Source of the DNA: Bacteroidales bacterium
GTDB lineage: Bacteria; Bacteroidota; Bacteroidia; Bacteroidales; BM520
Direction: 5' to 3'
Assembly (NCBI GenBank): GCA_023230285.1
Contig: JALNXP010000018.1
Span: 1 to 19,356, forward strand
Length of the DNA: 19,356 bases
Program-made: the position numbers and the translations under genes
Part shown: one piece after another, positions 4,579 to 19,356 of the stretch
Numbering within the stretch: position 1 is the first letter of the stretch
Layout: the number at the start of each line of letters is the position of its first letter
Notes under the pieces: model-generated
What the model saw: the letters and a program-made list of their open reading frames with translations, nothing else
Databases searched by the model: none
What the model was told of the DNA's origin: nothing

Positions 4579-4592
4579 TTCGTTTTGCGATG

Positions 4593-4600
4593 CAAAGATA
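4593..4600 (-). promoter_or_regulatory. -7 box upstream of tRNA-Val
   Basis: TATCTTTG on the minus strand matches the Bacteroidota -7 consensus and lies 14 bases before the tRNA 5' end, so the transcript would begin a few bases ahead of the mature tRNA. I see no clear TTTG box at the -33 position. Confidence 0.55.
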
Positions 4601-4680
4601 TAAATTTTTTTTATTATCACACTTTTTTTTGAAAAATATTTTTGTTGTGAGTTAACGTGCTGATAATGACAATGTTGTAA

Positions 4681-7476
4681 TTACTGCCTGCCGCATAATA
4701 GCTTGTAATTACAAGAAGAACAAATGTTTTTAGAAGTTGTTGAGGTGAATGATTGGTCGGAATTTTTTATCTCAATTACAATCTGTTTGACGAAATCTGA
4801 AATTTTATCGATGGTATCGTCATCTATAAGTGTACTTATCATAACTTCTTTGACCTGCTTTGTGGAAAAGTCTTTGTGACGTAAAGCGTATAAACCTGCC
4901 GAAAAATTACTTATATGCTTATTGTAATATATTAAGTAACTGTATAATAATAATTGTATGGCTTTTGTATTTGGCGCAGCGAAAAATTTATTGTCATTGA
5001 TTTCAAATGATTTTTCTCCGGTATTACCTGTTTTATAATCCATAATTCTGATTTGCCCATTGACTTCTTCAATTCTGTCAATTATTCCGTATAAAGTGAT
5101 GCTGGTTGTATTATCTATTTTTACTTCTTGCAAATGACTGTTCTCTAATTGTCTTATAATTAATGTGTTATTTGTCTCGACTTTGTATTTGTCGCTTTTT
5201 ATCATGGCTGTCACATAATTTTGTATGAGGCGTTTTAACAATAGATTTCTTCCGGATTCTGCTTCAATTTTTTGTTTTTTAAAACTGTCTTCTATAGCTT
5301 GCTCAATATTTTTTTCTATTTCTATAAAATCATCTTTTGTAAGACGATTATTTAATTTGTTATTATATAAGGTGTGTAATGTGTCGTGTATCAATGTTCC
5401 CATCATTGCAGGGTCTATCAATTCGCTATCGGTTGTGTCTTTAACACCTAATATGTATCTATAATAAAATTTGAGTTGGCAGTCTATGTAAGTATTGAAA
5501 GCTGATGGTGAAATGTTCTTTTTCAGAAAAGCTTTTATGTACTTCATCACCGTATCATCTTTTTCTATTACGTCTATTTTGTTGCTGTTTATCAGCTTGT
5601 TAGAGTTGATATATGTCTTTTGCCGGATTACTGTATCGGGATTGTAAGTTGGCTGTTCGTAAATTAATTGAGCTATGTATCTGCTTTTTTCGTTTGTTCC
5701 GATGCTTCCTTCGGCGGAGTTGTAAATCAGGTAGATGTTTTGCGATCTTTGTATTAATCTGTAAAAATGATAAGCGAAGACGGCGTTTTTCTCTTTCTCT
5801 GAAGGCATTTTATTTTCTTTGATTATTTCATACGTCAAAAAATTTGAAAGAGGTGTTTTCTTCGGAAGTATGTCTTCGTTGAGAGATAAGATGATGACGT
5901 TTTTGAAATCCAAGAGGCGTGTTTCTAATAAGCCGAGTATTTGCAGTCCTCTGAGTGGCTCACTTTTAAAAGAAACGCTGACTTCTTCTAAATAATATTT
6001 TATTAATGCCGCAAGATTTGCGACTTCATTTATTACGGTGTTTGATTTAAGGTCTGTTTTTATTTCGTCAAATATCGTTAATAAATTTATAATTATTTCT
6101 GTTTCAATTACATAGCCATCTAATTTGCTTATAGTATTGTATAATTTATTTAAAAGTATGGTGATAGTTTCTAACGCTTGTAAAGAGTTGTTGTTCCAAG
6201 GCAGAAGGAAGTCTAATAGGTTGGTTTCCAATGTTTTGCCAGATAAATCAGCTATAATATCAGCACTTAAAATTTCTTTTTTGAGAATATTATTTATCTC
6301 AATCTGCAAAATACATTCGTTTTTTATCAGAATTTTGAATATCGGATTTTGAACTATTTTGTTGATATAGTTTGTTTTGTAGCAAGATTCTTTGTTGTTG
6401 TTGCAGATGGCTTTTGTATGCAATGAAAAGATGTCGGCTATAAGTTTGTTGATAGGGTTTGCGGCTAAAGGAACGCCTAAGGTGATGTTGGGTTTGTTGT
6501 ATTTTTCGGGTATAGAATTTAGCATTGGGAGCAACAAATTTTCATCAGCGAGTACTATCACAGTTTCGTCAGCATCAAAATCGTTGTCAACAAGTATTTT
6601 ATGTGCTATTTTAGTTTGCTGTATGTTTCCTGCTGTATTGATGATGGTTATATTTTTTTGCATAGAGAAGCAGTTGCTCAAAATGGCATTTTCATCGTTC
6701 CAAAGTTTTAGATGTCTACGAAGAAAGAGTCCGGCTTCCTGCATTTCGTTTTCTACATAATATTTGTCGGCATCCCATATAAACTCGGCTGTTTGGCTTT
6801 TATGTAAATGGTCAAATATGGTTATTTCGCTTTTACTCAAAGCATTAAATCCGATAAACAATATTTTTTCCCATGTTATGCTTTGGGAGATTTCTTCTAT
6901 ATTTTCCGCTACATATCTGTATAATTGTCCGCTGTAACATAAGTTGTTGTCGAATAGTAATTTGCGAAGTTCGCTGTAATATTTTTTTAATGTAGATAAA
7001 AATTCTATATGGTGTTTTTCAAAATCTGTAAGTTGTTGTTTTTCAGGCGACCAGAGTTCTATGGCTTTAGCTTCCGATAAATAGTTGAAAGTATGTTCAG
7101 CATCAGCCATATATAAGTCTATTTCATTAAAATCTTTGAGTGCGGAAGAAGCCCAGCCCAAGAAGTTGGTGAAAGATTTATCATCTGATATTTTACAATG
7201 TACTTCGTAAAATTTGAGCAATAAAGTAACAGTATCAGCAGTAATCAAGGTTTTTTTTACAGCTGCTAAAGCGGTTATAAACTCTTGAATAGACATTATT
7301 TCGGGTGCGAAATTTGCTTTGTGCAAGCTATTGAATATTTCGTGTTGCAGATGAGTTTTTGCTCTGTTGTTAGGTACAACCAAGCATAAATCCATGAGAT
7401 TTTGCTCGTACTTTGAAATAATGAGCTGTGTAGTTTGTTGCAGAAATGTAGTGGAACAATTATTGTTTTCTACCAT
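4681..7476 (-). CDS. AddB-like PD-(D/E)XK exonuclease with Fe-S cluster
   Basis: This 931-residue protein has the layout of the AddB/RecB-type recombination nuclease subunit, which works with a UvrD-like helicase to process double-strand breaks for RecA. The first ~640 residues form a helicase-like region without a recognisable working ATP-binding loop (the N-terminal segment reads VVPNNRAKT). The C-terminal nuclease domain starts near 655. Its visible residues are His697 (GTLIH), Asp800 (DRIEE), and Asp813 and Lys815 in MDYKTG. Cys666 in YIDCQLKFYY together with Cys919, Cys922 and Cys928 (C-x2-C-x5-C at the end) is the AddB-type 4Fe-4S set that clamps the nuclease fold. The helicase partner (AddA/RecB-like) is not in the window. 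The start overlaps the upstream kinase gene by 7 bp (ATGGTAG), indicating coupled translation. Confidence 0.88.
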   Translation of the reverse strand: MVENNNCSTTFLQQTTQLIISKYEQNLMDLCLVVPNNRAKTHLQHEIFNSLHKANFAPEIMSIQEFITALAAVKKTLITADTVTLLLKFYEVHCKISDDKSFTNFLGWASSALKDFNEIDLYMADAEHTFNYLSEAKAIELWSPEKQQLTDFEKHHIEFLSTLKKYYSELRKLLFDNNLCYSGQLYRYVAENIEEISQSITWEKILFIGFNALSKSEITIFDHLHKSQTAEFIWDADKYYVENEMQEAGLFLRRHLKLWNDENAILSNCFSMQKNITIINTAGNIQQTKIAHKILVDNDFDADETVIVLADENLLLPMLNSIPEKYNKPNITLGVPLAANPINKLIADIFSLHTKAICNNNKESCYKTNYINKIVQNPIFKILIKNECILQIEINNILKKEILSADIIADLSGKTLETNLLDFLLPWNNNSLQALETITILLNKLYNTISKLDGYVIETEIIINLLTIFDEIKTDLKSNTVINEVANLAALIKYYLEEVSVSFKSEPLRGLQILGLLETRLLDFKNVIILSLNEDILPKKTPLSNFLTYEIIKENKMPSEKEKNAVFAYHFYRLIQRSQNIYLIYNSAEGSIGTNEKSRYIAQLIYEQPTYNPDTVIRQKTYINSNKLINSNKIDVIEKDDTVMKYIKAFLKKNISPSAFNTYIDCQLKFYYRYILGVKDTTDSELIDPAMMGTLIHDTLHTLYNNKLNNRLTKDDFIEIEKNIEQAIEDSFKKQKIEAESGRNLLLKRLIQNYVTAMIKSDKYKVETNNTLIIRQLENSHLQEVKIDNTTSITLYGIIDRIEEVNGQIRIMDYKTGNTGEKSFEINDNKFFAAPNTKAIQLLLYSYLIYYNKHISNFSAGLYALRHKDFSTKQVKEVMISTLIDDDTIDKISDFVKQIVIEIKNSDQSFTSTTSKNICSSCNYKLLCGRQ

Positions 7477-8891
7477 GTATCTTCTCTTAAATGGTTTATG
7501 ATTACGTTTATATTTTTATATTTCTTCTGATAGTATTCGGCAAATTTTTCGGCGCAGTATACGGAGCGATGTTTGCCGCCGGAGCATCCAAAGGATACTT
7601 GCAGCATATTGAAATTGCGTTGTATGTATTTTTTTACTGATATTTCTGTGATATTAACTGCATAATCAAGGAAGTCGTAGACTTCTTTTTCATTTTCCAA
7701 GAAATTTATTATCGGAAGATCTTTCCCGCAGAATTGTCGCAGTTCAGGGATCCAGTAGGGGTTAGGCAGAGCGCGACAGTCGAAGACGAAGCCACCGCCG
7801 TGAGAATGGTCTGACGGGACACTGTTATATAAATATGAGAAAGATGTAACTATTAAATTCAGCTTGTCGGGAACGATATTGTTGTTATTGTTTCCCAAGT
7901 TTTTTTTTGCTTTAATTGATGAGAACACGTTTCGCAGCTCCGGCAGTTTAAAGCTATCGACATCAAGTTCTTGCAAAAGCGAGTAAGTATTTTCGAGGCT
8001 TATTGATATACTTTCGTAAAAGTGAGGTTTCCTTTCTATTAAGCCTCTGAAACCGTAAGCACCAAGTGTTTGCAGTATGCGTAACAATCTCATTATCAGC
8101 ACATCATTGTCGAAATGTTTTTTATCATAATCTATATATTGTGAGATAAAGTTGTAATAATCATTTTTCAAAACACTTCTGTCATCATCGATAAATCCGG
8201 CTTTTGCCTGATAGATAAAAGAGACGAGGTCATAAGTGCAAGGACCTTTTCTGCCGCCCTGATAATCTATAAACCAGGGTTCATTATTACGGATTATGAT
8301 GTTTCTGCTTTGGAAGTCGCGGTACATGAAAGAGTTGGTATTAGCGGCTAAAGCTTTGTCGGCGATAAAGTTGAAATCTTTTTCGAGGGCGAGTTCGTCG
8401 AAGTCAACATTTATCACTTTCAAGAAGTTGTATTTAAAATAGTTGAGGTCCCACATTATAGACATTTTGTCGAAGGTTGGTGTAGGGAATGCGAGAGAAT
8501 AGTTGATATTTTTTGATGCTGCGAACTGTATATTGGCGAGACACTTCAGCGATTTACGGCAAAGTTCCGTAAGATAGTCATTGAGTGTATTGTTTTTTTT
8601 TGTTGTGATGAGGTCAAACAGAGCAATATTGCCGAGGTCTTCGAGCAGGTAAATGTTATCGGTTTCGTCAGCAGCTATGATTTTCGGAACATTAGCGCCG
8701 GCTTCGTCAAAAGTTTGTGTAAAGTTCAGAAAGGCTTTTGTTTCTTTAGAGTTTGAAGAATACACAGCGATACAACTTCCTTTTGGGAATGTAATTCTGT
8801 AATAAACTCTGTTTGAGCCTGAGCCTGTTATTTGTTTGGCGGACCAGTTATTGCAGTAGTTGTCTATAAGTTTTTTCAGTTTAGGATTCAT
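7470..8891 (-). CDS. AmgK-like sugar kinase fused to RapZ C-terminal domain
   Basis: Two domains are joined. Numbering here runs from an upstream ATG at 8909. Residues ~15-330 form an aminoglycoside-phosphotransferase-like kinase: a nucleotide loop GSGSNRVYYR at 29-38, the catalytic loop YRDFQSRN with Asp198, and the metal-binding IDYQGG with Asp215 followed by KGPCTYDL. This resembles AmgK, the anomeric MurNAc/GlcNAc kinase of cell-wall recycling. Residues ~350-479 match the RapZ C-terminal domain, known to bind glucosamine-6-phosphate: VFDCRALPNPYW at 375-386 and GCSGGKHRSVY at 441-451. The RapZ N-terminal ATPase is absent. A -7 box at 8921-8928 would put the transcript start only a few bases before 8909, so I prefer the ATG at 8891 (MNPKLKK). 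The fusion suggests amino-sugar phosphorylation sensed or controlled by an amino-sugar phosphate; the substrate is inferred. Confidence 0.9.
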   Translation of the reverse strand: MNPKLKKLIDNYCNNWSAKQITGSGSNRVYYRITFPKGSCIAVYSSNSKETKAFLNFTQTFDEAGANVPKIIAADETDNIYLLEDLGNIALFDLITTKKNNTLNDYLTELCRKSLKCLANIQFAASKNINYSLAFPTPTFDKMSIMWDLNYFKYNFLKVINVDFDELALEKDFNFIADKALAANTNSFMYRDFQSRNIIIRNNEPWFIDYQGGRKGPCTYDLVSFIYQAKAGFIDDDRSVLKNDYYNFISQYIDYDKKHFDNDVLIMRLLRILQTLGAYGFRGLIERKPHFYESISISLENTYSLLQELDVDSFKLPELRNVFSSIKAKKNLGNNNNNIVPDKLNLIVTSFSYLYNSVPSDHSHGGGFVFDCRALPNPYWIPELRQFCGKDLPIINFLENEKEVYDFLDYAVNITEISVKKYIQRNFNMLQVSFGCSGGKHRSVYCAEKFAEYYQKKYKNINVIINHLREDTW

Positions 8892-8920
8892 ACAATTTAT
8901 ATTGTTCATATAATATTGTA

Positions 8921-8928
8921 CAAAGGTA
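8921..8928 (-). promoter_or_regulatory. -7 box for the kinase/RapZ-nuclease operon
   Basis: TACCTTTG on the minus strand fits TAnnTTTG. It lies in the 34-base gap between the rho stop and the kinase gene, and its position favours the ATG at 8891 over 8909. No clear -33 box is seen; that position would fall inside the end of rho. Confidence 0.55.
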
Positions 8929-8943
8929 GCACTAAAAAAATTA

Positions 8944-11124
8944 TTATCCGTTCATAGAAGCTAAAAATTCTATATTATCTTTTGTAAGTTTCATACGGTC
9001 TCTGATAAATTCCATAGCTTCTACGGGGTTCATGTCGGCGAGATGGTTTCTCAGTATCCAAACTCTTTGTAATATTTCTTTGCTTATAAGGAGGTCTTCG
9101 CGTCTTGTGCCGGAGGAGACGATGTCTACGGCAGGGTAAACGCGTTTATTGGATAATCTTCTGTCTAGTTGCAGTTCCATGTTGCCGGTACCTTTAAATT
9201 CTTCGAAGATGACTTCGTCCATTTTGGAGCCGGTGTCGATAAGGGCAGTAGCGAGGATGGTCAGTGAGCCGCCGTTTTCTATTTGTCGTGCGGCACCGAA
9301 GAAGCGTTTCGGTTTTTGTAGTGCGTTGGCTTCTACGCCGCCGGAGAGTACTTTGCCGGAAGAAGGGGATACGGTATTGTAAGCGCGAGCAAGTCGGGTG
9401 ATAGAATCAAGTAGAATTACGACATCGTGACCACATTCGACCATGCGTTTAGCTTTTTCGAGAACTATGTTGGCTATTTTCACGTGTCTGTCAGCCGGCT
9501 CATCAAAGGTAGAGGATATTACTTCGGCTTTAACGCTGCGTTGCATGTCGGTAACTTCCTCAGGCCGCTCGTCTATAAGTAATACTATAAGGTAAGCGTT
9601 AGGGTGGTTGTATGCGATGGCGTTAGCTATCTCTTTGAGTAATACTGTTTTACCTGTCTTGGGCTGGGATACTATCAAACCTCTTTGCCCCATACCTATC
9701 GGAGCAAACAAGTCGATGATTCTGGAAGACATTGTCTCGTACGGGTGTCCTGTGAGCTTGAATTTCTTCTCCGGAAACAGCGGTGTCAAAAAGTCGAAAG
9801 GTACTCTGTCTCTTATCTCTTCGGGTGTCTTTCCGTTGATAAGTTCTACTTTTATCAAAGGAAAATATTTCTCGCCTTCTTTTGGTGTACGGATTATGCC
9901 GTTGATAGTATCACCGGTTTTTAGTCCGAATAATTTTATCTGTGATTGAGAAACGTAAATATCATCAGGCGAATTAAGATAGTTGTAGTCGGAACTTCTT
10001 AAGAAACCATAACCCTCGTTCATTATCTCAAGTACGCCTTCTGTAGATACTGTGATGTCAAAATCTGAAACCGACAATTCTGTTTCAGCATCTTTAATTA
10101 TGTTTCCGTCAACATCACGTCTTTGATTGTTGTTTCTCTTGTTGCTGTTCTTTTTATTTTTTTGATTTTTGTAGTTGTTGTTTTGACGGTTATTGAGCTG
10201 ATATTTTGCTGTTCTGTCTTTAATATTATTATTGTTTTCCGAAGCTGTATTGACTTGTGTCTCTGTGTTTTCTGAAGATTCTGTACTTGTTGCGGTTGTT
10301 TTAGTTTCGGCTTCAGTTTCTGTTTCAGTCTCAGGTGCGACTTCTGTTTTTTGAACTAAAGGAATTTCATTATTTATATTTGACATGTCTTTTTGTTCGT
10401 CTGTAATTAAAGATTTTCCGTCATTAAAGATTTTCGTATTATTGAAAGAAGGCTCTTTATCATAATCAGGTCTCTTTTTTGCCATTGGAGGGATTATGGT
10501 AGTTGGTGGTTTTATTTCGGAATTTAGCAAATTGTTGTATACTTCTTTATTATTAGCAACATTTTGGACTGATACAAATATATTTTTCTTTGAATTATTT
10601 GGTGTATTTGTTTCGTTTTTGTTTGCGCTTTCTTGGACGAAAGAGTTACCTGCTGAAGAGGCTAATTTACTTGGTGAAGATATGCGTTTTCTTTGGCGGG
10701 ATTTTTTTTGTGAGGTGTTGTTGTTATATTCTTCATCATCAGGGAACAGCTGTTGTTGAATTTTATCTGTGTCGGCTTTCATCACTTGTTTATTGTTGAT
10801 GTTTACATTTTTGTTTTCAGCGTTAGAGTTTGTTACAACAGGTGTGTCAGCTGTTTCGGATTCTTTTTTAGGCTTATCCGTTTTTGTTTTTTTGGGTTTT
10901 GCTTTAGGTTTTGCGGCTGTATTTTCGGAAGGAGGTTCGCTAACTATTTCCTGTGGCTGTGTTTTTTGAGTTTTGCCGCTGCTGGATTGAACTGCCTGAT
11001 GGTCTAATATTTTGAAAATCAAGTCTTGTTTTTTTAAAAAATCTATTTTTTTTATATCCATTTCTTTGGCAATTTGCTTCAAGTCATTAAGAAGTTTGCC
11101 TTCGAGTTCGACTAAATCGTACAT
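8944..11124 (-). CDS. rho: Transcription termination factor Rho with long disordered N-terminal insertion
   Basis: Rho is the hexameric RNA-dependent ATPase that ends transcription. This one has 726 residues against about 420 in E. coli. Residues 1-43 are the Rho N-terminal helical domain ([18 protein letters not shown]). Residues ~45-350 are a low-complexity region rich in Asn, Lys, Thr, Ser and Glu, including runs of Asn and alternating Glu/Thr. The RNA-binding cold-shock-like domain follows ([15 protein letters not shown] and [15 protein letters not shown]). The ATPase has Walker A QPKTGKT with Lys492, Walker [16 protein letters not shown], the Q-loop region near SGGVEANAL, and the R-loop [11 protein letters not shown]. 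Extra low-complexity insertions are a known feature of Bacteroidota Rho and may support phase separation or extra RNA contacts. The gene has its own promoter and a leader of about 160 bases. Confidence 0.98.
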
Positions 11125-11218
11125 AAAATACTGTTATTAATTTTGAATTTGTTCAAACAATAATCTGAACATTAATTTTAGAATGTCAATACTATTTATG
11201 TTATTGAAATTAATAATT

Positions 11219-11250
11219 GCCGACAGAAATGTTGATACGTTTTTGTCGGC
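11219..11250 (-). other. Hairpin in the rho leader
   Basis: GCCGACA at 11219-11225 pairs perfectly with TGTCGGC at 11244-11250 around an 18-base loop whose edges (AAA/TTT) can add pairs. It sits in the middle of the 5' leader of rho on the minus strand. E. coli rho is autoregulated in its leader, so this may be part of a similar control, but that is inference. Confidence 0.4.
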
Positions 11251-11288
11251 TGACGTTTGTATAGGACTACGTCTTTTCTTATCGGCTG

Positions 11289-11296
11289 CAAAGGTA
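11289..11296 (-). promoter_or_regulatory. -7 box upstream of rho
   Basis: TACCTTTG on the minus strand fits the Bacteroidota -7 consensus. It lies just past the stop codon of the TPR gene (11309) and would start a leader of about 157 bases. The -33 region shows no clear TTTG, so readthrough from the TPR operon may also feed rho. Confidence 0.55.
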
Positions 11297-11308
11297 TATA
11301 TTTTTTTG

Positions 11309-13810
11309 TTATAATTGGTTGAAAGTTGCAATAAATTTTTTCCGATAATCTTCAACATTATTTATTTCGACTTGAAATTTTTCCGGGTTACGGTCGAATA
11401 TCTTTTGGTATAATGACAAAGATTCGTCAAAATATTTTTTTGCCTTGTCAAAATGTCTCCAATCGAAATACATGACAGCCAAGTTCTTAGTGTATCGTGC
11501 TAAATTTTCATCCCATAATTCCTGATTTTCGGAGTCGGAAGCATATATCTGTTTTACAAAAGCGATGCTTTTCAGATAAAAGATTTCGGACTTCTTATAT
11601 TTTTTTGTTTTCCACAACAAAAAGCCCAAGTTGTTATAATTTCCAGATAAGAATATGCCATATTGTTCAGGAGCATCTTGGGAGATGCGTTCTGTTATTG
11701 CGATAGCTTGTTCCATATATTTTACAGCTTTTTTATATTGTTGATAGCTGCCATAGAAGTAGCCAAGATTATTCAAAGAAACGGCATATCCGATAGAGTA
11801 AACAGCCTCATCAATTTCTAATAGCTCTTTTCTTATTGACATCCCTTCGTATCGCATTTTTTTTGCGAGTTTGTATTCATCTAAATATTGATATAAATCG
11901 CCATAATCATCGAGTAGTGTAGCATATTCAACTAATATTTTTGTATCATTATAACGTTTTAAATATTTTTTATATTTATTTGCGGCAACAGCGTATAATG
12001 TGTCAGCGGTTTGAAAATCTTCAATGTTTGCATATAAACGTCCCATTTGATAGTAAGCATAAGCGGAATACTTTTCATTGACAGCTGAATTTTTGTCAAT
12101 AAGTTCGTTGCTGATATTCAGCATTTTAGAATAATAGTATTTGCTTTTGTCATATTCAGACGTAAATCTATAAAGTAATCCAATGTTATTATAAACATGA
12201 TATAAGTAAAAGTTATAAACCATTGGATTATCTTGTGCTAAATGTTCAAAAATTTTTATAGCTTCCAAAGAATATTTTTCGGATAGTGAGTATTCATTTA
12301 ATATTTTATATGTAGAGCCTAAGTTAGATGCGGCTAAAGCTAAAGACTCCAAGTCAAAGCCTGAGCCGGCGACTGCATTTTCTTTACATATATTATATGC
12401 TTTCAGGTGATATTGCAGCGATAGCTTTCCTTCTTGATAGTCAAAATAGGTACTTCCAAGATTGGTATATGTATTGGCAAGGAAATTATCATATTTTTTA
12501 GGATTATCGGCGGCAAGTTTCTCATATATTTTTATTTGTTCTAAAAAGCTGTTGACGGCTTCTTCGATTCTGTTATTGCTTTGCAGAAGAACAGCTGTGT
12601 ATCCAAATAACTGAGCATACATGGAAAGATGTTTTTCGGAATTGTCTTGTGCCAACTGTTTCGCAACCGGTTGTGCTTGCGCAAAACATTCATCAGCTTG
12701 TTCTGCTTTGTTTATAGTATTATACAGATATCCCATTGCCGATAAAGTTGTGACATAAGCATCTAAGGAGACCTCCGAATTTTCATCATAAAACATTTTG
12801 GATAGGGAAAGGGCTTTTTTTAAAGTTGTCTCCGCTTTATCATATTCGAGCATTTCTCTATATAAATCGCCTAAATTATTGAGTACATCTATTTTACAAT
12901 ATATGTCTGTAGTATGCCTTTCTGCCTGTTGATAGCGGGCAACAGCTTTTTTATATTGTCGAATTTCGTATAAAAATGTGCCGTATTCCATAAGATTATA
13001 GAAATCGGTACTGTCGGCAGCTATGATCTCTTCCCAATTAGTTTCAATATATTTGTAATTTGCACTTCCACCGGCAAACATACGATATTCGTTTTCTTCT
13101 TTTAGTGTCTCTATTAAATTATTGATGTCTTCAGCAACTTCATCTCGGAGTTGTATTTTTTCTTTTAATTTTTGAAGAGAATTAGTCTGTTGATACAAAG
13201 CAATAGCACCATTAACATCTCCATTTTCAAAAAATTTCAAGGCGTTAAGTTCTAAAGAATCCAAATCATCTTTGTTAATACGGGCAAGTCTTTCTGAAAA
13301 ATAATGCAGCTTTTCAAGTGCAGTATTTTGTTCTTCATAAGCTTCTGCCAACTTATCTTGGTATTCTTTCAAAGATATTTGATGATTGTTCAATAAATCG
13401 GCATATTCATTTTTCAGGATATCGAAATTGTTTTGTAAAGATTGTTTTCCTATGCCATAATATTTTTCTTTAGCTTCATTCAGCGTTTCTTTTTTAGATA
13501 AGATGATGATAAACTCTTCTTGTTCAGACAGTATCCATTTTTGAATATCTTTGTCGTTGACGATTTCATAATCTTTTTTGAAGACATCTTCGCAAATAAC
13601 TTTGCTGCCGGCTTTTAAAGTAGAGAACGATAGAGAGAAGCAGCCGTTTCCGTCGCTGATGGTAGGAATAGCGCCGGATACTTTAATAGACACATCTTCA
13701 ATAGGTTGTCCACCTGAGTTTTGTAAAACGACTTTGCCTTTTTGGACACTTTGAGCGAAAAGAGTCAGGTAAATGACAGTAAAAAATATAGAGAAGATAA
13801 ATTTTTTCAT
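11309..13810 (-). CDS. Secreted TPR protein with N-terminal carboxypeptidase-regulatory-like domain
   Basis: The chosen ATG at 13810 gives 833 residues that open with a typical signal peptide (MKKFIFSIFFTVIYLTLFAQ, probable cut at FA-Q). The same frame is open to an ATG at 13861, but that lies inside the upstream gene and would bury the signal. Residues ~24-65 are a carboxypeptidase-regulatory-like beta domain (GKVVLQNSGGQPIEDVSIKV and DGNGCFSLSF). A helical, charged stretch follows to ~190, and from ~195 to the end come many tetratricopeptide repeats with Asn-Asn-Leu-Gly and Tyr/Ala-rich helices (for example LNNLGDLYREM, NNIGLLYRF, NNLGFLLWKTKKY). TPR superhelices bind other proteins. It is the last gene of the sigma/peptidase operon, 23 bases after the previous stop, so it probably acts in the periplasm or at the outer surface in the same pathway. 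Binding partners are unknown. Confidence 0.88.
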   Translation of the reverse strand: MKKFIFSIFFTVIYLTLFAQSVQKGKVVLQNSGGQPIEDVSIKVSGAIPTISDGNGCFSLSFSTLKAGSKVICEDVFKKDYEIVNDKDIQKWILSEQEEFIIILSKKETLNEAKEKYYGIGKQSLQNNFDILKNEYADLLNNHQISLKEYQDKLAEAYEEQNTALEKLHYFSERLARINKDDLDSLELNALKFFENGDVNGAIALYQQTNSLQKLKEKIQLRDEVAEDINNLIETLKEENEYRMFAGGSANYKYIETNWEEIIAADSTDFYNLMEYGTFLYEIRQYKKAVARYQQAERHTTDIYCKIDVLNNLGDLYREMLEYDKAETTLKKALSLSKMFYDENSEVSLDAYVTTLSAMGYLYNTINKAEQADECFAQAQPVAKQLAQDNSEKHLSMYAQLFGYTAVLLQSNNRIEEAVNSFLEQIKIYEKLAADNPKKYDNFLANTYTNLGSTYFDYQEGKLSLQYHLKAYNICKENAVAGSGFDLESLALAASNLGSTYKILNEYSLSEKYSLEAIKIFEHLAQDNPMVYNFYLYHVYNNIGLLYRFTSEYDKSKYYYSKMLNISNELIDKNSAVNEKYSAYAYYQMGRLYANIEDFQTADTLYAVAANKYKKYLKRYNDTKILVEYATLLDDYGDLYQYLDEYKLAKKMRYEGMSIRKELLEIDEAVYSIGYAVSLNNLGYFYGSYQQYKKAVKYMEQAIAITERISQDAPEQYGIFLSGNYNNLGFLLWKTKKYKKSEIFYLKSIAFVKQIYASDSENQELWDENLARYTKNLAVMYFDWRHFDKAKKYFDESLSLYQKIFDRNPEKFQVEINNVEDYRKKFIATFNQL

Positions 13811-13833
13811 TGATATAAGATTTTTAGAAACGA

Positions 13834-15378
13834 CTAATTTTTTTGCAGGACAATCAGCCACGGTTCTTTTTCAGATGGTGCGCCTCTATGGTGCAGCCAT
13901 GTTTTGTAGCCGTTTTTTTGTATCATTAAACTTTGTTCTTTCTTTTGCAAATTGGGAGGAATTACGATTTTGAAATTTCCGTTACAATCGCTTTTTACCG
14001 CTATACCTTGTAGTGTAATTACAGCATTTGCAACCGGCAGCCCATTTTCGTCTTGAATATATCCGAAGATCAGTCCTAAATCGTTGTTTCTACGTACAGT
14101 CAGCTTTATATCTTTAGTGATAGGCAAAACTGTATCTATTGTGATGAAGCCGTCTGCGTAAAACTCGATATGGGCATCTTTGTGTTTATGTTTATAATTG
14201 ATTTCGGAGACAACTACTGTTTGGCTGTCTTTTGTGATTGTAAACGGTATGGTAGCCAAATCTGAGTAAGTTACTTTAAGGATGCCGTCATTTAGAGGCA
14301 GCGTTGGTATTTTATAGTTACTATCTTCATTAACAGTGATTTTCATGTCGATAGGGGTATAATATCTCCATGCTAAAAAAGCGGTATACAAGACACATGC
14401 AGGGATTAAGAAGCAGAACAGGAAATATTTTATTATTTTGGTCCATGTTTTGTCCGGTTTAGGAATTAAGCCGTTGTCTTTCAGGCGTTTTACTATTTCG
14501 TCGAAAGCCAAGTCGGCGAATTTTTCAACGGAGCCTTTTTGATAATCAAAATGTTGCATTGACACGGGGTTGTATGCCAATGGAGCAGGCTTTGTTGTTG
14601 CCACCATAAAATATCCGGACTCTTCCCAAGCGTCCATAAACTGTTTTGCGGGGTATGTACAATGTACTTTGCTGTTTGTCGGGTCAGTAAGAGTAACTTT
14701 GACATCATCGGGGTTGGTAGTGTCAATACCGGCGACAACAAGCACGTGATTAGCTTCTTTGCCAGACATTACATTGTCGAACTGTCGCCATTGCTCACTT
14801 TGTTCCAAGTCGTTAGTATCAACGCCGACAATAATTTTATGTCCTTGTCCCAATTCGTTCATGAGGTGGTAGATATTGGCGTTACGCATTTGTACGGCGG
14901 ATATATCGAAATAATTAAGCAGTTCCCCGACATAATCCATCGGGCTGCCGATATTATCGACGAACCATCCATTTTCACGAGCTATTTTAGTAAGCTCCGG
15001 TAGAGATATGTTTATGCCATAATCTTGTAAAATTATTTGTTGAGCCTGTATAGCACAGCTTTTTTTGTCATCTTCTGTAAGTGCAGCAATGGCTGTTTTT
15101 CCGTAACCTGCTAATTGATAGCGAGTGTCATCATCTAAATTGTCTTTATCTAAAAGAGATTTGGCGTATACGGATTTTTTCTTGCTTTTAGTTTTTTTAC
15201 TGTTGCTCTTTTCGTTGTCGTTTTCCATGAGAGCATGTATTTTGGTCATCATGAGCAATGCCTCATACTCTTCAGGGTGCGTGGCAATGTAATCTAACAC
15301 CGCACGAGTCTCTTCCTGATTGGTGTCACAATCAAGATAACGGGCTATGAGTTCATCGGTTATGTTAATATTTGCCAT
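13834..15378 (-). CDS. Membrane protein: FecR-like N-terminus, C39-like cysteine peptidase, TM helix, regulatory-like domain
   Basis: Four parts are visible in 514 residues. Residues 5-45 (ITDELIARYLDCDTNQEE) resemble the N-terminal helices of FecR-type anti-sigma factors. Residues 55-70 are a Lys/Ser linker. Residues ~100-265 look like a C39-like papain-fold peptidase: Cys108 (KKSCAIQAQQ), His211 (ANHVLVVAGI) and Asp232 (LTDPTNS) give the expected Cys-His-Asp order and spacing. Lysines at 310-317 precede one transmembrane helix at about 318-337, which places the peptidase in the cytoplasm. The C-terminal ~175 residues would be periplasmic and end in a carboxypeptidase-regulatory-like domain (FGYIQDENGLPVANAVITLQ from residue 438). 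The start overlaps the sigma gene by 14 bp, so it is most likely the regulator of that sigma factor. Peptidase activity and anti-sigma function are inferred. Confidence 0.8.
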   Translation of the reverse strand: MANINITDELIARYLDCDTNQEETRAVLDYIATHPEEYEALLMMTKIHALMENDNEKSNSKKTKSKKKSVYAKSLLDKDNLDDDTRYQLAGYGKTAIAALTEDDKKSCAIQAQQIILQDYGINISLPELTKIARENGWFVDNIGSPMDYVGELLNYFDISAVQMRNANIYHLMNELGQGHKIIVGVDTNDLEQSEQWRQFDNVMSGKEANHVLVVAGIDTTNPDDVKVTLTDPTNSKVHCTYPAKQFMDAWEESGYFMVATTKPAPLAYNPVSMQHFDYQKGSVEKFADLAFDEIVKRLKDNGLIPKPDKTWTKIIKYFLFCFLIPACVLYTAFLAWRYYTPIDMKITVNEDSNYKIPTLPLNDGILKVTYSDLATIPFTITKDSQTVVVSEINYKHKHKDAHIEFYADGFITIDTVLPITKDIKLTVRRNNDLGLIFGYIQDENGLPVANAVITLQGIAVKSDCNGNFKIVIPPNLQKKEQSLMIQKNGYKTWLHHRGAPSEKEPWLIVLQKN

Positions 15379-15964
15379 CTTTTAATTTTTTTAGTGTGGT
15401 CTTTAACTGCAGTCTTGCCAAATGTCTCAAATTATACAGGTTATCGATAGTTGTATCTAATTTTTTCGCAGTAATTTCAAACTTTTCTTCTTCCAGCTCG
15501 GATATAATAATCAAGCGATATCGCAGGTTAGGCATATATCGAATAGCGTTATACAAGTCGATTTTGGTATATCCGCGATATAATTCTGTATCATCAGAAT
15601 CTGCATCATCGTCTTTTTTGTCGATTTCTTTTTCGTATAGAGGCACAGAATTTTGAAAATATATAAGTGTATTTCTTTCTTTTATAAAAAAATGTGTAGC
15701 TACGACAGTCAGCCACGTGATAAGTTTGGATTTTCCCTGAAAACTCTTAAGTGCCGCCCATTCATTAGCTTGCAGATGCAAATAAAATTCGTTAGCAACT
15801 TCTTGTTTTTCGATATTATTATGGAAGATTTCGGATACAATATAAGAGAACAATTTATCACATTTTTGGTAAAAAAAATAGTCGATAAAAGGAGGTTCGT
15901 TGTTTATCACCCTGTCGATTAGTTCCAAATCGCTGATATTATCATAATTTATTTTATGTTTCAT
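15365..15964 (-). CDS. ECF-type sigma-70 family RNA polymerase sigma factor
   Basis: This 199-residue protein has the two-domain build of an extracytoplasmic-function sigma factor. Region 2 spans about 25-100, with the typical end FQGKSKLITWLTVVATHFF (75-93) that recognises the -10 region. An acidic linker (DKKDDDADSDDTE, 115-127) joins it to region 4 at about 135-195, where EKFEITAKKLDTTIDNLYNL forms the helix-turn-helix for the -35 region. It is the first gene of the operon with the FecR/C39-like protein (14-bp overlap) and the secreted TPR protein, the usual place for a sigma factor controlled by its downstream neighbour. The target regulon is unknown. The divergent TIR cassette 0.3 kb away is one possible target. 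Confidence 0.9.
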   Translation of the reverse strand: MKHKINYDNISDLELIDRVINNEPPFIDYFFYQKCDKLFSYIVSEIFHNNIEKQEVANEFYLHLQANEWAALKSFQGKSKLITWLTVVATHFFIKERNTLIYFQNSVPLYEKEIDKKDDDADSDDTELYRGYTKIDLYNAIRYMPNLRYRLIIISELEEEKFEITAKKLDTTIDNLYNLRHLARLQLKTTLKKLKDGKY

Positions 15965-16025
15965 ACAGTATAGTAGTGATAATCAATGTTTTTAAGTTTT
16001 GTGTTATTGTCGTTCAATACAGATG

Positions 16026-16033
16026 CAAAGTTA
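16026..16033 (-). promoter_or_regulatory. -7 box upstream of the sigma factor operon
   Basis: TAACTTTG on the minus strand fits TAnnTTTG and would give a leader of roughly 55 bases before the ATG at 15964. The -33 position is poor (a TTG only 14 bases upstream), so this is a moderate call. It lies about 60 bases from the left copy of the 48-bp repeat. Confidence 0.45.
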
Positions 16034-16092
16034 TTAAATATAATCAACAAGGGATTGAAAAGTGGCAAAAATTTTCGATAAGATATTAACAA

Positions 16093-16140
16093 CGTAGATT
16101 CAAGTAGCAAGTGCGAAAATACAATAAAGAGTTGAGAAAT
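16093..16140 (+). repeat. 48-bp direct repeat, left copy
   Basis: This stretch is identical to 18941-18988, in the same orientation, and the two copies bracket the TIR cassette. The first 15 bases of the other copy are the last codons and stop of the second TIR gene (RRFK-stop). Here those codons follow an in-frame stop (TAA, two codons before), so this copy is non-coding. It looks like the leftover 3' end of an earlier cassette, or one end of a small inserted unit. Outside the 48 bases the flanks diverge at once. Confidence 0.85.
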
Positions 16141-16184
16141 TTTTTGGTTTGAATCTATCCATGAAAAAAATTAAAAATCAGTTA

Positions 16185-16192
16185 TAGATTTG
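16185..16192 (+). promoter_or_regulatory. -7 box candidate for the TIR cassette
   Basis: TAGATTTG on the plus strand fits TAnnTTTG and would give a leader of about 85 bases before the ATG at 16283. The nearest upstream TTTG (16148-16151) is 33 bases away, too far for a standard -33 box. The rest of 15965-16282 holds the sigma promoter, the repeat copy, and an ATG at 16161 opening only an 8-codon frame. Confidence 0.35.
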
Positions 16193-16282
16193 AGATGGTG
16201 AAAGGCTCTATATAATGTAAGAATAAAAAATAAAATTAGACCCGAAGGCTCGATGAGGGGAAAGAACGGAGAGAGAAAGAAG

Positions 16283-16615
16283 ATGAAAAAATATAATGTT
16301 AATCAATTTACCAACAACTTTAATTTTTATGATTTTGTGAGCTTTTTAAAAAAAGAGTATCCGAATAATAATGTGCGAGAACATGCGATTATAGGGCAAT
16401 ACAATCAATCCGTCATGGTAAAATATTCTTCCGTTTTGCGAGGACAGTTTATTTATAACAGAAATACCGGTGAATTGTCTCTTGCAGCACAACCGACTAT
16501 GTGGGGGTCACTTTTGTGCGGAATTTTTTGGATAGCTTTTACCGGAAATGCACAACGCAGGTATTTACAAACCATGCAAGAAGTAACAGAATATTATTTA
16601 GACACTTTAAAATAA
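16283..16615 (+). CDS. Small hypothetical protein with a hydrophobic segment, first gene of the TIR cassette
   Basis: I do not recognise this 110-residue protein. The ATG at 16283 (MKKYNVNQF) follows a purine-rich GAGAGAAAGAAG stretch and is preferred to the in-frame ATG at 16253. Residues 1-70 are a mixed soluble domain with aromatic and Asn-rich parts (YNVNQFTNNFNFYDF; YSSVLRGQFIYNRNTGELSL). Residues 72-88 (TMWGSLLCGIFWIAFTG) are hydrophobic enough to contact or cross a membrane. The tail QRRYLQTMQEVTEYYLDTLK should be helical. The first TIR gene starts 19 bases after its stop, so they are most likely co-transcribed. A role as regulator or membrane partner of the TIR proteins is a guess from position. 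Confidence 0.7.
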   Translation: MKKYNVNQFTNNFNFYDFVSFLKKEYPNNNVREHAIIGQYNQSVMVKYSSVLRGQFIYNRNTGELSLAAQPTMWGSLLCGIFWIAFTGNAQRRYLQTMQEVTEYYLDTLK

Positions 16616-16634
16616 ATTACTCAACACCTGCTTT

Positions 16635-17306
16635 ATGTCTCACGATGTTTTTATTAGTTATTCCGGCAAAGACAAACAGACCGCCGATGCCTTATGTCAT
16701 GTTTTGGAGCAAAACAAAGTATCGTGTTGGATTGCTCCACGCGATGTTACTCCGGGAAAGCCTTACGCATTAGAAATTATTGAAGGTATCAAAAACTGTA
16801 AAATTGTAGTTATAGTATTTTCAAAAAATTCCAATATTTCGGAGCATGTTAAAAATGAATTGCAAAACGCATTTGCTAAAAATAAAATCATAGTGCCTTT
16901 TATAGTTGATGAAACTCCTATGGACGAAGAGTTTGATTATTATTTAGCGCGCAAGCATTGGATTGTGGCGTATCCTCATCCAGAAGTCAAATTTAAAGAT
17001 TTGCTTGAAGTGGTTATAAATTTGATAGGAAAATCATCTACGACAACGGGTAATTCTGAAAAAGCAGAGCTCGAGAAAAAAGCAAAATATTATGAAGATA
17101 TATGCAATAAAGCGATGGCATTAAGAAAGTATAAAGAATTATTTGACATGGACAAGTCGAATATGGAATTAAGGCACAAAATTATACAATTGCAATATGA
17201 AGTGGATAATGAAAGGAAAAAAGATAATAGTAAATATATGATTTGGATTATAGTTGGTACTATTTTTCTTATCATTATTGCTTGTATTTTAGGAATGTTG
17301 GAATAA
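16635..17306 (+). CDS. TIR-domain protein with C-terminal membrane anchor
   Basis: Of the 223 residues, 1-133 form a bacterial TIR domain: strand A motif HDVFISYSGKDK (3-14), the BB-loop CWIAPRDVTPG (31-41), helix YALEIIEGIKNC with Glu47 (44-55), VIVFSKNSNISEHVKNE (59-75), VPFIVDETPM (87-96) and YYLARKHWIVAYP (102-114). Glu47, at the YxxE position, is the best candidate for the NAD+-cleaving glutamate of catalytic TIRs. A charged helical linker covers 142-200, and residues 202-221 are a single hydrophobic helix at the very end, which would anchor the protein with the TIR domain in the cytoplasm. TIR domains of bacteria often hydrolyse NAD+ or make signalling nucleotides from it, mainly in antiphage defence. 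Activity and role here are inferred. Confidence 0.9.
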   Translation: MSHDVFISYSGKDKQTADALCHVLEQNKVSCWIAPRDVTPGKPYALEIIEGIKNCKIVVIVFSKNSNISEHVKNELQNAFAKNKIIVPFIVDETPMDEEFDYYLARKHWIVAYPHPEVKFKDLLEVVINLIGKSSTTTGNSEKAELEKKAKYYEDICNKAMALRKYKELFDMDKSNMELRHKIIQLQYEVDNERKKDNSKYMIWIIVGTIFLIIIACILGMLE

Positions 17307-17317
17307 ATTTAAGTATT

Positions 17318-17349
17318 ATGGCTTTTTTGTTAAAAAAACCATATCTTTG
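17318..17349 (+). promoter_or_regulatory. Hairpin and -7 box between the two TIR genes
   Basis: ATGGCTTTTTT at 17318-17328 pairs with AAAAAAACCAT at 17332-17342 (one mismatch, GTT loop), a weak terminator-like hairpin 12 bases after the first TIR gene. Directly after it lies TATCTTTG (17342-17349), a good -7 box that would start a ~28-base leader for the second TIR gene at 17384. The second TIR gene may therefore be expressed partly on its own. No -33 TTTG with correct spacing is seen. Confidence 0.4.
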
Positions 17350-17383
17350 TCTCACGAAAACAACCTTTAATTTTTAACTTGTT

Positions 17384-18955
17384 ATGAGACATTACGACAT
17401 TTTTATCAGCTACCGCCGTGATGGTGGACACGAAACGGCTCAAATGATTGCCGAACATTTGAAAAATAAGGGATACAAAGTCTTTTTAGATGTTGAAAAC
17501 CTTCGAGAAGGTCCGTTTAATACCCAATTGTTGGAAGTTATCAAACAATGTAAAGACTTTATTCTGGTGATTCCAAAAGACGGTTTAGACCGTTGCAATA
17601 ATGAAGACGACTGGGTTCGCTTAGAGCTGGAATGTGCTATTGAAAACAATAAAAATGTAATACCGGTATTGCTTCGCGGATTTGTTTTTCCTGAGAAATT
17701 GCCGGAATCCATTAAAGAAGTGAAATATTATAATGGCGTTGCTGCCGGCGATAATAATTATACGGATGCCCAACTGCAAAAATTACGCAGCTTCCTGAAA
17801 TCAAAAAACGGATTTAGCTTTGCACTCTATAAAAAATGGATCTATTTAGCGATCATATTTATTGTCGCAATCGGGGGAATTGTCAGTGCTGTCTTATGGC
17901 ATAATTATAAAGAATACGTTATGCTATGTAAGGGCGTTTCTGATAAAATGGCTGCCTGCCTTGTGGAAACACAAGGTACAATCATCTCGTATGAAGATGC
18001 TGCCGATTATTGGTATGACTATACAGACAGATTAGATAAAATAACGAATATTAAAGATACTGCATATCTGTATGGCGAATTGGAAAAGATAATATACTTT
18101 AAGCAACAGCAAGAACATAGATATCAAATAATTTCATTGTCGGAAAATGATAAAAAACAGTTAAGAAAACATCGTATTCAACCGGAAGATATTGAGGTGT
18201 TTTTTGTGCCGGGTGTGTCTGCCTTTTTTGAAAATGTAAATATCAAATATTCCTTTCTTTTAAGCCGCTCCGCCCCGAATTTCTATTATCATAATAAAAA
18301 ATATGCTCGTGAAAGAACAGACGATGATCTGTATTGCCTTCAACTCGAAGCAGATGCGGTTTATTATCATTTTTTATATGTTCTTTCGCAAATGCCTAAA
18401 GAAGTTCAGGAGAATTTTGATAAAATAAAATCAACTCTTACAAAATTTCCTGATGTGCCTACCGATAATAAAAAAGAATATTACGAAGCTTTGTATGTTA
18501 AAGTTACAAATAAATTAGAAGAAAAAGTTCTTAAAGATATAAAAGACTTGGAGGTTAAAAAGTTGGCTTTGCAGGAAGTTGAAGATACTTACAATGCTTT
18601 ACAAGAAATAAAACAGATGCAGGAAATGTTGAATAATGATACTGAAATAAAGCAAAAGACCCAAGAAGTCGCCGTTAGACAAGAGGAAGTAGAGGTTTTA
18701 CAAACTAAACTGCAAGATGAAAAACAGAAATCAGATGCAAAATATGAAATAGCGATGGAGAAGTTTGTCATTGTCGGTGATGACCAGTGGTTAGATTGGG
18801 CAAGAGTAGTAAGAATGTCGTCAATATCACAAAATGCAATGCAATCGAGGGCGGATCTTGCCAAAGAACTGAATATAAGTATCAAAAAAGTTGAAGAAGG
18901 ATATAAATACGACTATAAGAAAATGTTTGAAACAGTAGATCGTAGATTCAAGTAG
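17384..18955 (+). CDS. TIR-transmembrane protein with C-terminal coiled-coil/sensor region
   Basis: This 523-residue protein has three parts. Residues 1-140 are a TIR domain whose motifs follow the spacing of human SARM1: FISYRRDGG (7-15), VFLDVENLREG (33-43), FILVIPKDGLDRC (59-71), DDWVRLELECAI (75-86) and NVIPVLL (91-97). In the helix where the NADase glutamate is expected it reads F45-N-T-Q-L49, with no acidic residue at the usual place. Residues 152-172 are a single transmembrane helix preceded by two lysines, so the TIR domain should be cytoplasmic and the rest outside the membrane. Residues ~180-370 are an unrecognised helical domain, ~376-462 a coiled coil (EVKKLALQEVEDTYNALQEI), and the last 60 residues a small conserved-looking tail. 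The final codons lie inside the 48-bp repeat. It is probably the receptor partner of the tail-anchored TIR protein; that pairing is inferred. Confidence 0.88.
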   Translation: MRHYDIFISYRRDGGHETAQMIAEHLKNKGYKVFLDVENLREGPFNTQLLEVIKQCKDFILVIPKDGLDRCNNEDDWVRLELECAIENNKNVIPVLLRGFVFPEKLPESIKEVKYYNGVAAGDNNYTDAQLQKLRSFLKSKNGFSFALYKKWIYLAIIFIVAIGGIVSAVLWHNYKEYVMLCKGVSDKMAACLVETQGTIISYEDAADYWYDYTDRLDKITNIKDTAYLYGELEKIIYFKQQQEHRYQIISLSENDKKQLRKHRIQPEDIEVFFVPGVSAFFENVNIKYSFLLSRSAPNFYYHNKKYARERTDDDLYCLQLEADAVYYHFLYVLSQMPKEVQENFDKIKSTLTKFPDVPTDNKKEYYEALYVKVTNKLEEKVLKDIKDLEVKKLALQEVEDTYNALQEIKQMQEMLNNDTEIKQKTQEVAVRQEEVEVLQTKLQDEKQKSDAKYEIAMEKFVIVGDDQWLDWARVVRMSSISQNAMQSRADLAKELNISIKKVEEGYKYDYKKMFETVDRRFK

Positions 18956-18988
18956 CAAGTGCGAAAATACAATAAAGAGTTGAGAAAT
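18941..18988 (+). repeat. 48-bp direct repeat, right copy
   Basis: Exact copy of 16093-16140. It covers the last 15 bases of the second TIR gene, including the TAG stop, plus 33 bases of 3' flank. Because coding sequence is part of this copy, it is likely the original and the left copy the derived one. No inverted symmetry or terminator stem is visible in it. From 18989 to about 19130 the DNA is AT-rich and I see no further feature. Confidence 0.85.
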
Positions 18989-19154
18989 ATAGATTTAAAG
19001 GTGTGATTTTTGATATTATGTCAAATTTGCATTAGTTGTATTTGATTTTAAAGTGTTTATAATCAAGATGTTTATTTGCATATATTGTTTTTCTATTTTT
19101 TCTTCTTTTACTTTTTTATGACTAAAAAAGTAACAAAAAAGTCTTCCGCTGCGT

Positions 19155-19267
19155 CTGATTTTGCTAAAAGCTGTCGTTTTCCGCTAAGCCAAAAGAAACT
19201 CGCCTTCGGCTCAAACACCTTTTGGCTTTTAACGCTACAAACTCCATCTTTTTTAACGCAAAATCAG
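19155..19267. repeat. Nested inverted repeats, possible dispersed palindromic element or structured RNA
   Basis: Outer arms CTGATTTTGC (19155-19164) and GCAAAATCAG (19258-19267) pair perfectly. Inside them AAGCCAAAAG (19186-19195) pairs with CTTTTGGCTT (19219-19228), and inside that GCC-TTC-GGC (19202-19210) forms a small stem. The nesting is symmetric about the same centre, which suggests a folded RNA or a MITE-like repeat rather than a gene. An open frame of 83 codons crosses the region, but its Phe-run start and shuffled content look non-coding. Confidence 0.5.
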
Positions 19268-19282
19268 CCAAGGCGGGTCTGC

Positions 19283-19301
19283 ATTGTTGCTTTGCAACAA
19301 T
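19283..19301 (+). terminator. 8-bp hairpin followed by T-run
   Basis: ATTGTTGC and GCAACAAT pair around a TTT loop, and the plus strand continues with TTTT. It may be a terminator for plus-strand transcripts from the TIR cassette, but it lies 330 bases past the last stop and may instead belong to the repeat element beside it. Confidence 0.35.
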
Positions 19302-19339
19302 TTTGGGTTTGCCTTATCAGTTTATAAATTCTCTGACAT

Positions 19340-19354
19340 GACCCCGTAGGGGTC
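19340..19354. repeat. GC-rich palindrome at the right edge
   Basis: GACCCC-GTA-GGGGTC is a perfect 6-bp stem with a 3-base loop, strikingly GC-rich for this AT-rich window. With the nested repeats to its left it could mark the end of a dispersed intergenic element. The window ends two bases later, so its extent cannot be judged. Confidence 0.45.
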
Positions 19355-19356
19355 GC

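Follow-up and report, generated by a model that had tools for sequence, protein, structure and literature searches.

What do two membrane-anchored TIR proteins do when they are encoded one after the other in a Bacteroidales genome, and do they form a unit of their own? The genes in question lie near the end of a 19,356-nucleotide stretch of assembly GCA_023230285.1 (contig JALNXP010000018.1, positions 1 to 19,356; hereafter ‘the window’), where three plus-strand open reading frames (ORFs) occupy positions 16283-16615, 16635-17306 and 17384-18955 and are here called the small ORF, TIR-1 and TIR-2. A first-pass annotation had placed these ORFs correctly and had read them as a dedicated cassette in which a receptor TIR with an outside sensor assembles with an effector TIR. 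That two membrane TIR genes follow a small ORF is confirmed; the dedicated receptor-effector module is partly supported, and the locus is more interesting in its island context than as a closed cassette. The reading that we prefer, and to which we give about an even chance, is that of an envelope-sensing, membrane-anchored NADase drawn from modular islands of TIR, RyR and sigma-factor genes. The locus is a variant of TIR-based NAD+ systems that is new in its layout: bacterial TIR systems are known as phage defences that deplete NAD+ or send cyclic ADP-ribose (cADPR) to an effector, and the TIR-2 family adds to them a membrane-spanning receptor layout, an envelope-type PDZ domain and a TIR with SARM1, an enzyme of nerve degeneration in animals, among its best solved relatives.

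A SARM1-type TIR domain on a membrane helix

TIR-2 (17384..18955, plus strand; 523 aa) consists of a SARM1-type TIR (residues 6-119), a membrane helix (153-171, where the best 19-residue hydropathy reaches 2.76), bundle helices at about 223-349, a long helix at 364-460 and further helices to residue 522. The TIR aligns to Caenorhabditis elegans TIR-1/SARM1 with an E-value of 1.5e-26, and SARM1 and C. elegans TIR-1 come first both by sequence and by fold (identity 35-40%, TM-scores of 0.8-0.9 over single-TIR targets); on the human SARM1 TIR, the structure model (pLDDT 89, pTM 0.58) reaches a TM-score of about 0.9 over the target with a root-mean-square deviation of 1.3-1.4. Trp77 and Glu81, the residues of the NADase site in which the glutamate stands four residues after the ligand-binding tryptophan, are invariant in 52 aligned sequences. 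Cleavage of NAD+ by SARM1 and by many bacterial TIRs is established, and TIR-2 shares with SARM1 and C. elegans TIR-1 the domain and both of these residues. Unlike SARM1, TIR-2 has its TIR at the N-terminus, and neither Pfam nor the model revealed the autoinhibitory ARM or the octamer-forming SAM domains, in place of which stand the membrane helix, the helical bundle and the long helix.

This layout of TIR, membrane helix and homologous helical domain assigns TIR-2, with high confidence, to a mainly Bacteroidota family in which a SARM1-type TIR and a membrane helix are joined to a presumed outside helical domain and usually a C-terminal PDZ (825 relatives among 7997 candidates scored in a protein search). 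The closest full-length relatives among the 120 listed are about 640 aa long and align end to end with TIR-2 except for their final ~120 aa. Among 23 relatives from genome loci, the PDZ-bearing tail is present in 16 and absent from seven, and is thus common, not required. When aligned, 14 of the 16 tails match the PDZ domains of DegQ/DegP and site-2 protease in the PDB (best E 5.2e-10), and single tails match Pfam PDZ models weakly (PDZ_2 in 9/14, best 6.7e-4), so that the tail is an HtrA-like PDZ akin to those of DegP/DegQ and of a site-2 protease, all of which act in the envelope. This kinship suggests that the sensed trigger concerns envelope proteins.

We hypothesize that the outside helical domain of TIR-2 senses an envelope event, such as phage entry or envelope damage, that sensing gathers the TIR domains beneath the membrane, and that the gathered TIRs cleave NAD+, yielding ADP-ribose or a cyclic ADP-ribose; the cleavage would kill or arrest the cell, or its product would serve as a signal. 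Our confidence in this mechanism as a whole is moderate.

Companion genes of TIR-2

TIR-1 (16635..17306, plus strand; 223 aa) carries a TIR domain at residues 5-113 with a putative catalytic Glu75, a charged linker and a C-terminal tail anchor at residues 203-221 (best 19-residue hydropathy 2.86). As the first-pass annotation held, the two TIR proteins are of different subtype with one membrane helix each, according to Pfam, hydropathy and sequence matches, and TIR-2 has a receptor-like build; TIR_2 (PF13676) matches both over the cut-off (E 2.3e-23 for TIR-1 and 7.8e-14 for TIR-2) in Pfam scans that covered 12 window ORFs. TIR-1 matches plant, Toll and bacterial TIRs weakly (E 0.003-0.005). 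Besides two near-identical copies, its relatives match over the TIR, with at best 61% identity over 59% of the query among the best-listed, and many of those listed have C-terminal domains that differ from its own; the longer matches among the 120 listed are P0172 (44% over 85%), P0234 (39% over 85%) and P0228 (37% over 97%).

The small ORF (16283..16615, plus strand; 110 aa, or 120 aa from an upstream in-frame ATG at 16253) is an orphan of a length beyond chance: a plus-strand ATG ORF of at least 110 aa arose in 0 of 2000 mononucleotide shuffles of 16141-16634. No family matches it above cut-off, none of the ORFs in the 80 loci described below is related to it at E<=1e-3, and the protein database holds a single, 99%-identical cluster. 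The hydrophobic segment once claimed for it is there as a weak stretch at residues 67-85, but with a best 19-residue hydropathy of 1.25 a membrane helix is not convincing. By eye its layout of helix, strands, hydrophobic stretch and helix resembles that of a cluster of zinc-ribbon membrane proteins (cl2), and profile comparison with this cluster gives nothing; its membership as a diverged relative is unproven.

To place these genes we turn to the surroundings of TIR-2 relatives elsewhere. Of 219 loci confirmed in a scan of genome contigs, 80 were kept, 29 Bacteroidota by record title and 51 other, each fetched with up to 10 kb on either side and with genes called by a simple ORF caller; the loci are interrelated, and the counts that follow are not independent events. 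The TIR and helical profiles match all 29 Bacteroidota loci, and the helical profile also matches 4/51 others; for 21 of the 29 the helical match is by construction, the profile having been built from these, two Firmicutes loci and the window. The recurrence of a second TIR gene within the fetched stretch is real (19/29), but no fixed pairing accompanies it. The second gene is an immediate neighbour of the TIR-2 relative in 9/29 loci, the adjoining TIR proteins vary by locus in length (153 aa to about 1000 aa) and in some cases carry WD40 repeats, and 10/29 loci have no second TIR in reach. A TIR-1-like protein of the same cluster occurs in four loci (L001, L020, L031 and L062), and only the one in L031, which has C-terminal helices and a TIR 53% identical to that of TIR-1, adjoins the TIR-2 relative directly, in the opposite order.

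Might the three genes nonetheless be a dedicated two-component module, with TIR-2 as receptor, TIR-1 as effector and the small protein as third member? They are adjacent on one strand, the small ORF 19 bp from TIR-1 and TIR-1 77 bp from TIR-2, and both the nine loci in which TIR adjoins TIR and the similar pair in L031 speak for such a unit. We nevertheless consider it improbable: the trio is common to no locus examined, conserved adjacency being absent for the orphan small ORF and largely absent for TIR-1; the TIR neighbours of TIR-2 relatives vary or, in the ten loci just mentioned, are missing; and the NADase glutamate is retained in both TIR-1 and TIR-2, so that neither looks like a pure receptor and the division into receptor and effector does not follow from the sequence. 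If TIR-2 is instead an envelope-sensing NADase in its own right, the tail-anchored TIR-1 of the other subtype would act at the same place as an amplifier or second effector; the amplifier role is a guess.

The 77-bp gap contains a TAnnTTTG box (17342..17349, plus strand) about 35 bp before the TIR-2 start, which we take to be a Bacteroidota-type -7 element and which may give TIR-2 its own promoter, although the evidence is weak, with 34 such matches in the window against 29 expected by chance. Sigma-70-like promoter sites are uninformative (23 in the window, 14.8 expected), and a Bacteroidota promoter pair pattern has three matches in the window (1.8 expected), none at the cassette.

The 48-bp direct repeats

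The first-pass annotation overlooked two neighbours of the cassette: a divergent sigma-factor operon, described below, and a perfect 48-bp direct repeat that frames it. Copy 1 (16093..16140) separates the two divergent operons as part of their intergenic DNA, and the 100% identical copy 2 (18941..18988) takes in the end of the TIR-2 reading frame, stop codon included. Between the copies, which are spaced 2848 bp start to start, lie the small ORF, TIR-1 and TIR-2 together with their leader. The longest exact repeat in the window without copy 1 is 18 bp, and a 36-base piece of the repeat matches twice in the window, whereas 200 shuffles yield no match. Long exact repeats also occur in some of the nine TIR-2-family loci measured, up to 85 bp (L051), and are therefore not unique to the window locus. 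The framing is consistent with an accessory cassette that may have moved as a unit. No recombinase domain was found in the 12 ORFs scanned, and a 28-base piece of the repeat has no match in viral contigs. The nearest relatives of the window organism by valyl-tRNA synthetase identity, among 393 Bacteroidales genomes, are G319 (80%), G142 (78%) and G024 (74%); a 3.1-kb DNA query containing the repeat has no match in eight genomes of the G319 family, which shows little at such distance, the repeat itself not having been pattern-searched in whole genomes.

A plasmid or phage origin was considered and set aside: positions 15960-19356 have no DNA match in plasmids, where TIR-2 matches four records over 22-25% of its length, and TIR-2 has no protein match in phages. 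In viral contigs the window protein alone finds no relative, and the family alignment finds one generic TIR locus.

The position of copy 2 raises the question of whether the locus has been remodelled or is decaying, recombination at the repeat having cost TIR-2 its PDZ end and made it shorter and perhaps inactive or deregulated. TIR-2 stops inside the repeat, where its relatives continue for about 120 aa including the PDZ, and a near-identical metagenomic copy of TIR-1 (P0125) has its N-terminal part out of frame, through natural decay or an assembly error. Against decay, all three ORFs are open, the catalytic residues are intact, the PDZ tail is missing from seven of the 23 relatives as well, and the frame of P0125 may be an artefact of that second kind. 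We regard this history as doubtful, though somewhat less so than the two-component module. Within the preferred reading of an envelope-sensing NADase, PDZ loss at the repeat may have altered the trigger of the window TIR-2.

After the second copy of the repeat comes a repeat-like stretch with a short ORF (window 19076-19327) whose appearance suggests Bacteroidales intergenic repeats.

RyR domains, the sigma operon and known systems

It is the islands around the TIR-2 relatives that seem most worth following, and through them the locus points to an unstudied NAD-signalling system. RyR genes occur in 21/29 Bacteroidota loci, compared with 3/51 other loci and 37/393 whole Bacteroidales genomes; the 32 genes of the Bacteroidota loci share the strand of the anchor without exception, and 19 lie within 3 kb. 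A pair of genes for an extracytoplasmic function (ECF) sigma factor and a C39-like protein is present in 8/29, and proteins joining TIR, membrane helix and CarboxypepD-like domain in 6/29; the islands also contain nSTAND NTPases, a TIR protein that matches SIR2 below threshold, and Macro-TIR, WD40 and TIR-FGE proteins. The sigma, C39-like, PrsW, M48 and zinc-ribbon partners appear in 0/51 other loci, zeros that are partly expected, given the lesser length of those stretches (a median of 15.4 kb, as opposed to 20.5 kb) and the Bacteroidota origin of the profiles. The TIR matches of a whole genome can also cluster, with 6/6 of those in genome G007 in one 7.5 kb stretch and 8/8 of those in G010 in one 25 kb stretch. 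For the C-terminal part of TIR-2, tblastn proved too insensitive (3/393 genomes), whereas a profile search found it in 8/374 (E<=0.001), five of them strong matches; RyR occurs in four of these five against 37/393 overall (hypergeometric 3e-4), which is not an independent test, the five genomes being related and all having supplied loci.

The window carries its own form of the sigma pair, divergent from the TIR genes on the minus strand. An ECF-type sigma factor (15365..15964; 199 aa), matched below cut-off by NCBIfam models (PRK11922 4.8e-11, sigma70-ECF 6.8e-07), is overlapped by 14 bp by the gene for a predicted anti-sigma protein (13834..15378; 514 aa), and the third gene of the operon encodes a TPR-repeat protein (11309..13861, from a GTG start; an ATG start would be 13810) whose N-terminal part is CarboxypepD-like by eye, with no Pfam match. 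All three fall into recurrent clusters of the TIR-2-family loci; relatives of the sigma factor occur in 8/29, and that in L091 matches Sigma70_r4_2 over cut-off. The predicted anti-sigma protein consists of N-terminal helices, a papain/C39-like domain with the invariant cysteine and histidine at Cys108 and His211, a membrane helix near residue 319 and a sub-threshold CarboxypepD-like C-terminal domain. The papain-like part of its model (mean pLDDT 69) best matches 3erv (E 1.1e-5), and fold matches were used for that part alone. When the N-terminal and papain-like parts were compared as a profile with solved structures, calmodulins made up most of the 60 matches shown, at E 0.001 and above (3erv there 0.018), a kinship taken as chance and left unused. 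No anti-sigma domain was found in the window protein at E<=1; we predict that the N-terminal helices are one because zf-HC2 matches 4/20 aligned proteins below threshold (best E 0.0082) and because the gene follows that of the sigma factor.

How closely is this operon tied to TIR? C39-like matches number 18 in the 393 Bacteroidales genomes, 13 of them strong (E below 1e-30; two of these genomes, G006 and G319, supplied profile sequences), and the sigma gene directly adjoins the C39-like gene in 12/13, the two lying about 1.7 kb apart with ORFs between in G238. The C-terminal part of the C39-like protein in the window, G319 and G168 comprises a membrane helix (by hydropathy or homology) and a sub-threshold CarboxypepD-like domain. 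In G411 and G024, both of the G319 family, the homologous C-terminal part is joined to a TIR instead and lies beside TPR genes; fusions of TIR, membrane helix and CarboxypepD-like domain next to TPR genes also stand at L092:7425-8558 and L093:3875-5005, in organisms related to that of the window. This exchange of heads, TIR or C39-like, on a common stem further supports a TIR link of the operon. Confidence in a functional link between the TIR cassette and the sigma operon is low to moderate.

In the preferred reading, then, the TIR pair would be an accessory cassette framed by the 48-bp repeats beside an operon for an ECF sigma factor, a predicted transmembrane anti-sigma protease and a TPR protein, both drawn from a class of modular Bacteroidales islands whose recurring components are TIR-2-type genes, RyR-domain genes and the sigma/anti-sigma pair. 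Several observations weigh against it. The RyR profile found no RyR gene among the called genes of the window, beyond which the source contig may extend, nor did Pfam in the 12 ORFs scanned, and the RyR link of the window locus is therefore by family alone; 8/29 Bacteroidota loci have no RyR gene in reach, to which may be added the ten without a second TIR. The window TIR-2 has no C-terminal PDZ, and its C-terminal part is presumed to lie outside solely from its relatives' PDZ kinship and from charge balance (four Lys/Arg on the TIR side within 15 residues of the helix, two on the other). A TIR lies within the fetched stretch in just five of the 13 strong C39-like genomes, with a borderline match at 27.9 of 28 bits in one of the five and with some stretches ending at contig ends, which makes the sigma/C39 pair a more general regulator, not tied to TIR; G319 has the pair, yet no TIR match in 2.0 Mb of sequence of unstated completeness, so that the two operons are separable. 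Nothing that we found shows a defence role, PADLOC giving the tested window proteins partial TIR-domain matches or none.

The RyR domains nevertheless invite a further possibility. In 8/8 TIR-2-family loci with the sigma pair and in 6/13 of the sampled genomes, the C39-like anti-sigma bears a fused RyR domain (PF02026), and the island domains match solved RyR domains, including the 103-residue ‘putative ryanodine receptor’ 3nrt. Three residues, His30, Trp33 and Asp72, are invariant in 14/14 aligned island domains and His55 is kept in 11/14; they share the spacing (a spacing match, not an alignment) of RyDEP His75, Trp78, Asp117 and His100, which, according to the available text of PMC13232231, contact 2'/3'cADPR or its product. 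In the same text, phage RyR domains bind or cleave TIR-made cyclic ADP-ribose, the proteins tested being those of phages, where they serve counter-defence; the island RyR domains are instead encoded beside TIR genes and fused to regulators. According to another study (PMC9092222), cADPR and v-cADPR are products of TIR domains from gut Bacteroides, which may or may not belong to the TIR-2 family. No report of host RyR domains as readers of TIR signals was found in the literature searched, which covered few subscription papers. A 2015 survey of nucleotide-centred conflict systems may, reportedly, discuss bacterial RyR domains.

It is conceivable that TIR-made cyclic ADP-ribose is read by RyR domains that control the ECF sigma factor, as well as channels and proteases, in a transcriptional circuit and not a suicide system. 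The RyR–anti-sigma fusions and the RyDEP-like ligand residues favour this, but the window form of the anti-sigma protein bears no RyR, its place being taken by a membrane helix and CarboxypepD-like domain, 7/13 sampled C39-like proteins have no fused RyR, and ligand binding by host RyR domains is a prediction only; we hold it to be the least probable of the alternatives raised here. Somewhat less doubtful, although still unlikely, is a broader proposal in which the window TIR pair and sigma operon are one form of an NAD-derived circuit: the SARM1-type TIR would make cyclic ADP-ribose, RyR on the anti-sigma protease (and, in related islands, on PrsW proteases and membrane proteins of RCK type) would read it and turn an envelope event into a transcriptional programme, and in the window the RyR input would have been replaced by a transmembrane sensor on the anti-sigma. 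Such a circuit, if true, would share two parts with animal cADPR–calcium signalling, a SARM1-type TIR and RyR domains, and, if the RyR link is real, would offer a direct bacterial test of the long-standing question of whether RyR domains are cyclic ADP-ribose receptors.

Thoeris (ThsA/ThsB), CBASS/Pycsar and other catalogued systems were rejected: in PADLOC, NCBIfam and Pfam the window proteins match them solely over TIR domains, and there in part or below threshold. The ThsB model and the ThcB4 model of type III Thoeris match in the TIR only and far below the curated cut-off (ThcB4 38.8 of 220 bits), and, as the first-pass annotation had noted for ThsA, the ORFs scanned hold no SIR2–SLOG partner, nor a Macro(-TM) or caspase partner. 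TIR-1 falls just below threshold for the CAP12-PCTIR TIR model of Pycsar/CBASS (24.0 of 24.7 bits), and those ORFs show no cyclase, cyclic-nucleotide-binding or STING domain. Caspase-EACC2 conflict systems resemble the window in their ECF sigma factor and TPR genes, but the window shows no caspase, EACC or TRADD-N domain, and the available portion of PMC8195603 names no RyR domain or papain-like anti-sigma. Like other ECF sigma/anti-sigma pairs, the present one has an overlapping gene after the sigma gene and, in some relatives, a sub-threshold zf-HC2-like N-terminus; it differs in the inserted papain/C39-like domain, followed by RyR or by a membrane helix and CarboxypepD-like domain.

Other proteins of the islands and of the window deserve mention. 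Island membrane proteins with N-terminal helices are encoded at L120:6803-8878, L056:8072-9991, L020:13778-15832, L062:14236-16293, L026:4185-8105 and L118:6559-9081; those of L120 and L056 have sub-threshold RCK and C-terminal RyR matches, and a D-P-G-N/A motif lies in the first 180 residues of 8/10 listed island membrane proteins (not in that of L056, nor in a fragment in L009). The motif recalls the AD(S/A)GNHA filter of plant CASTOR calcium channels described in the accessible text of PMC6697748, and these proteins are candidate RyR-bearing ion channels beside TIR genes. At L051:11679-12698, a 339-aa protein that clusters with the PrsW proteases is matched by the RyR profile as well and is possibly an RyR-regulated membrane protease. 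In the window itself, an APH phosphotransferase domain is fused to a RapZ C-terminal domain at 7470-8909 on the minus strand.

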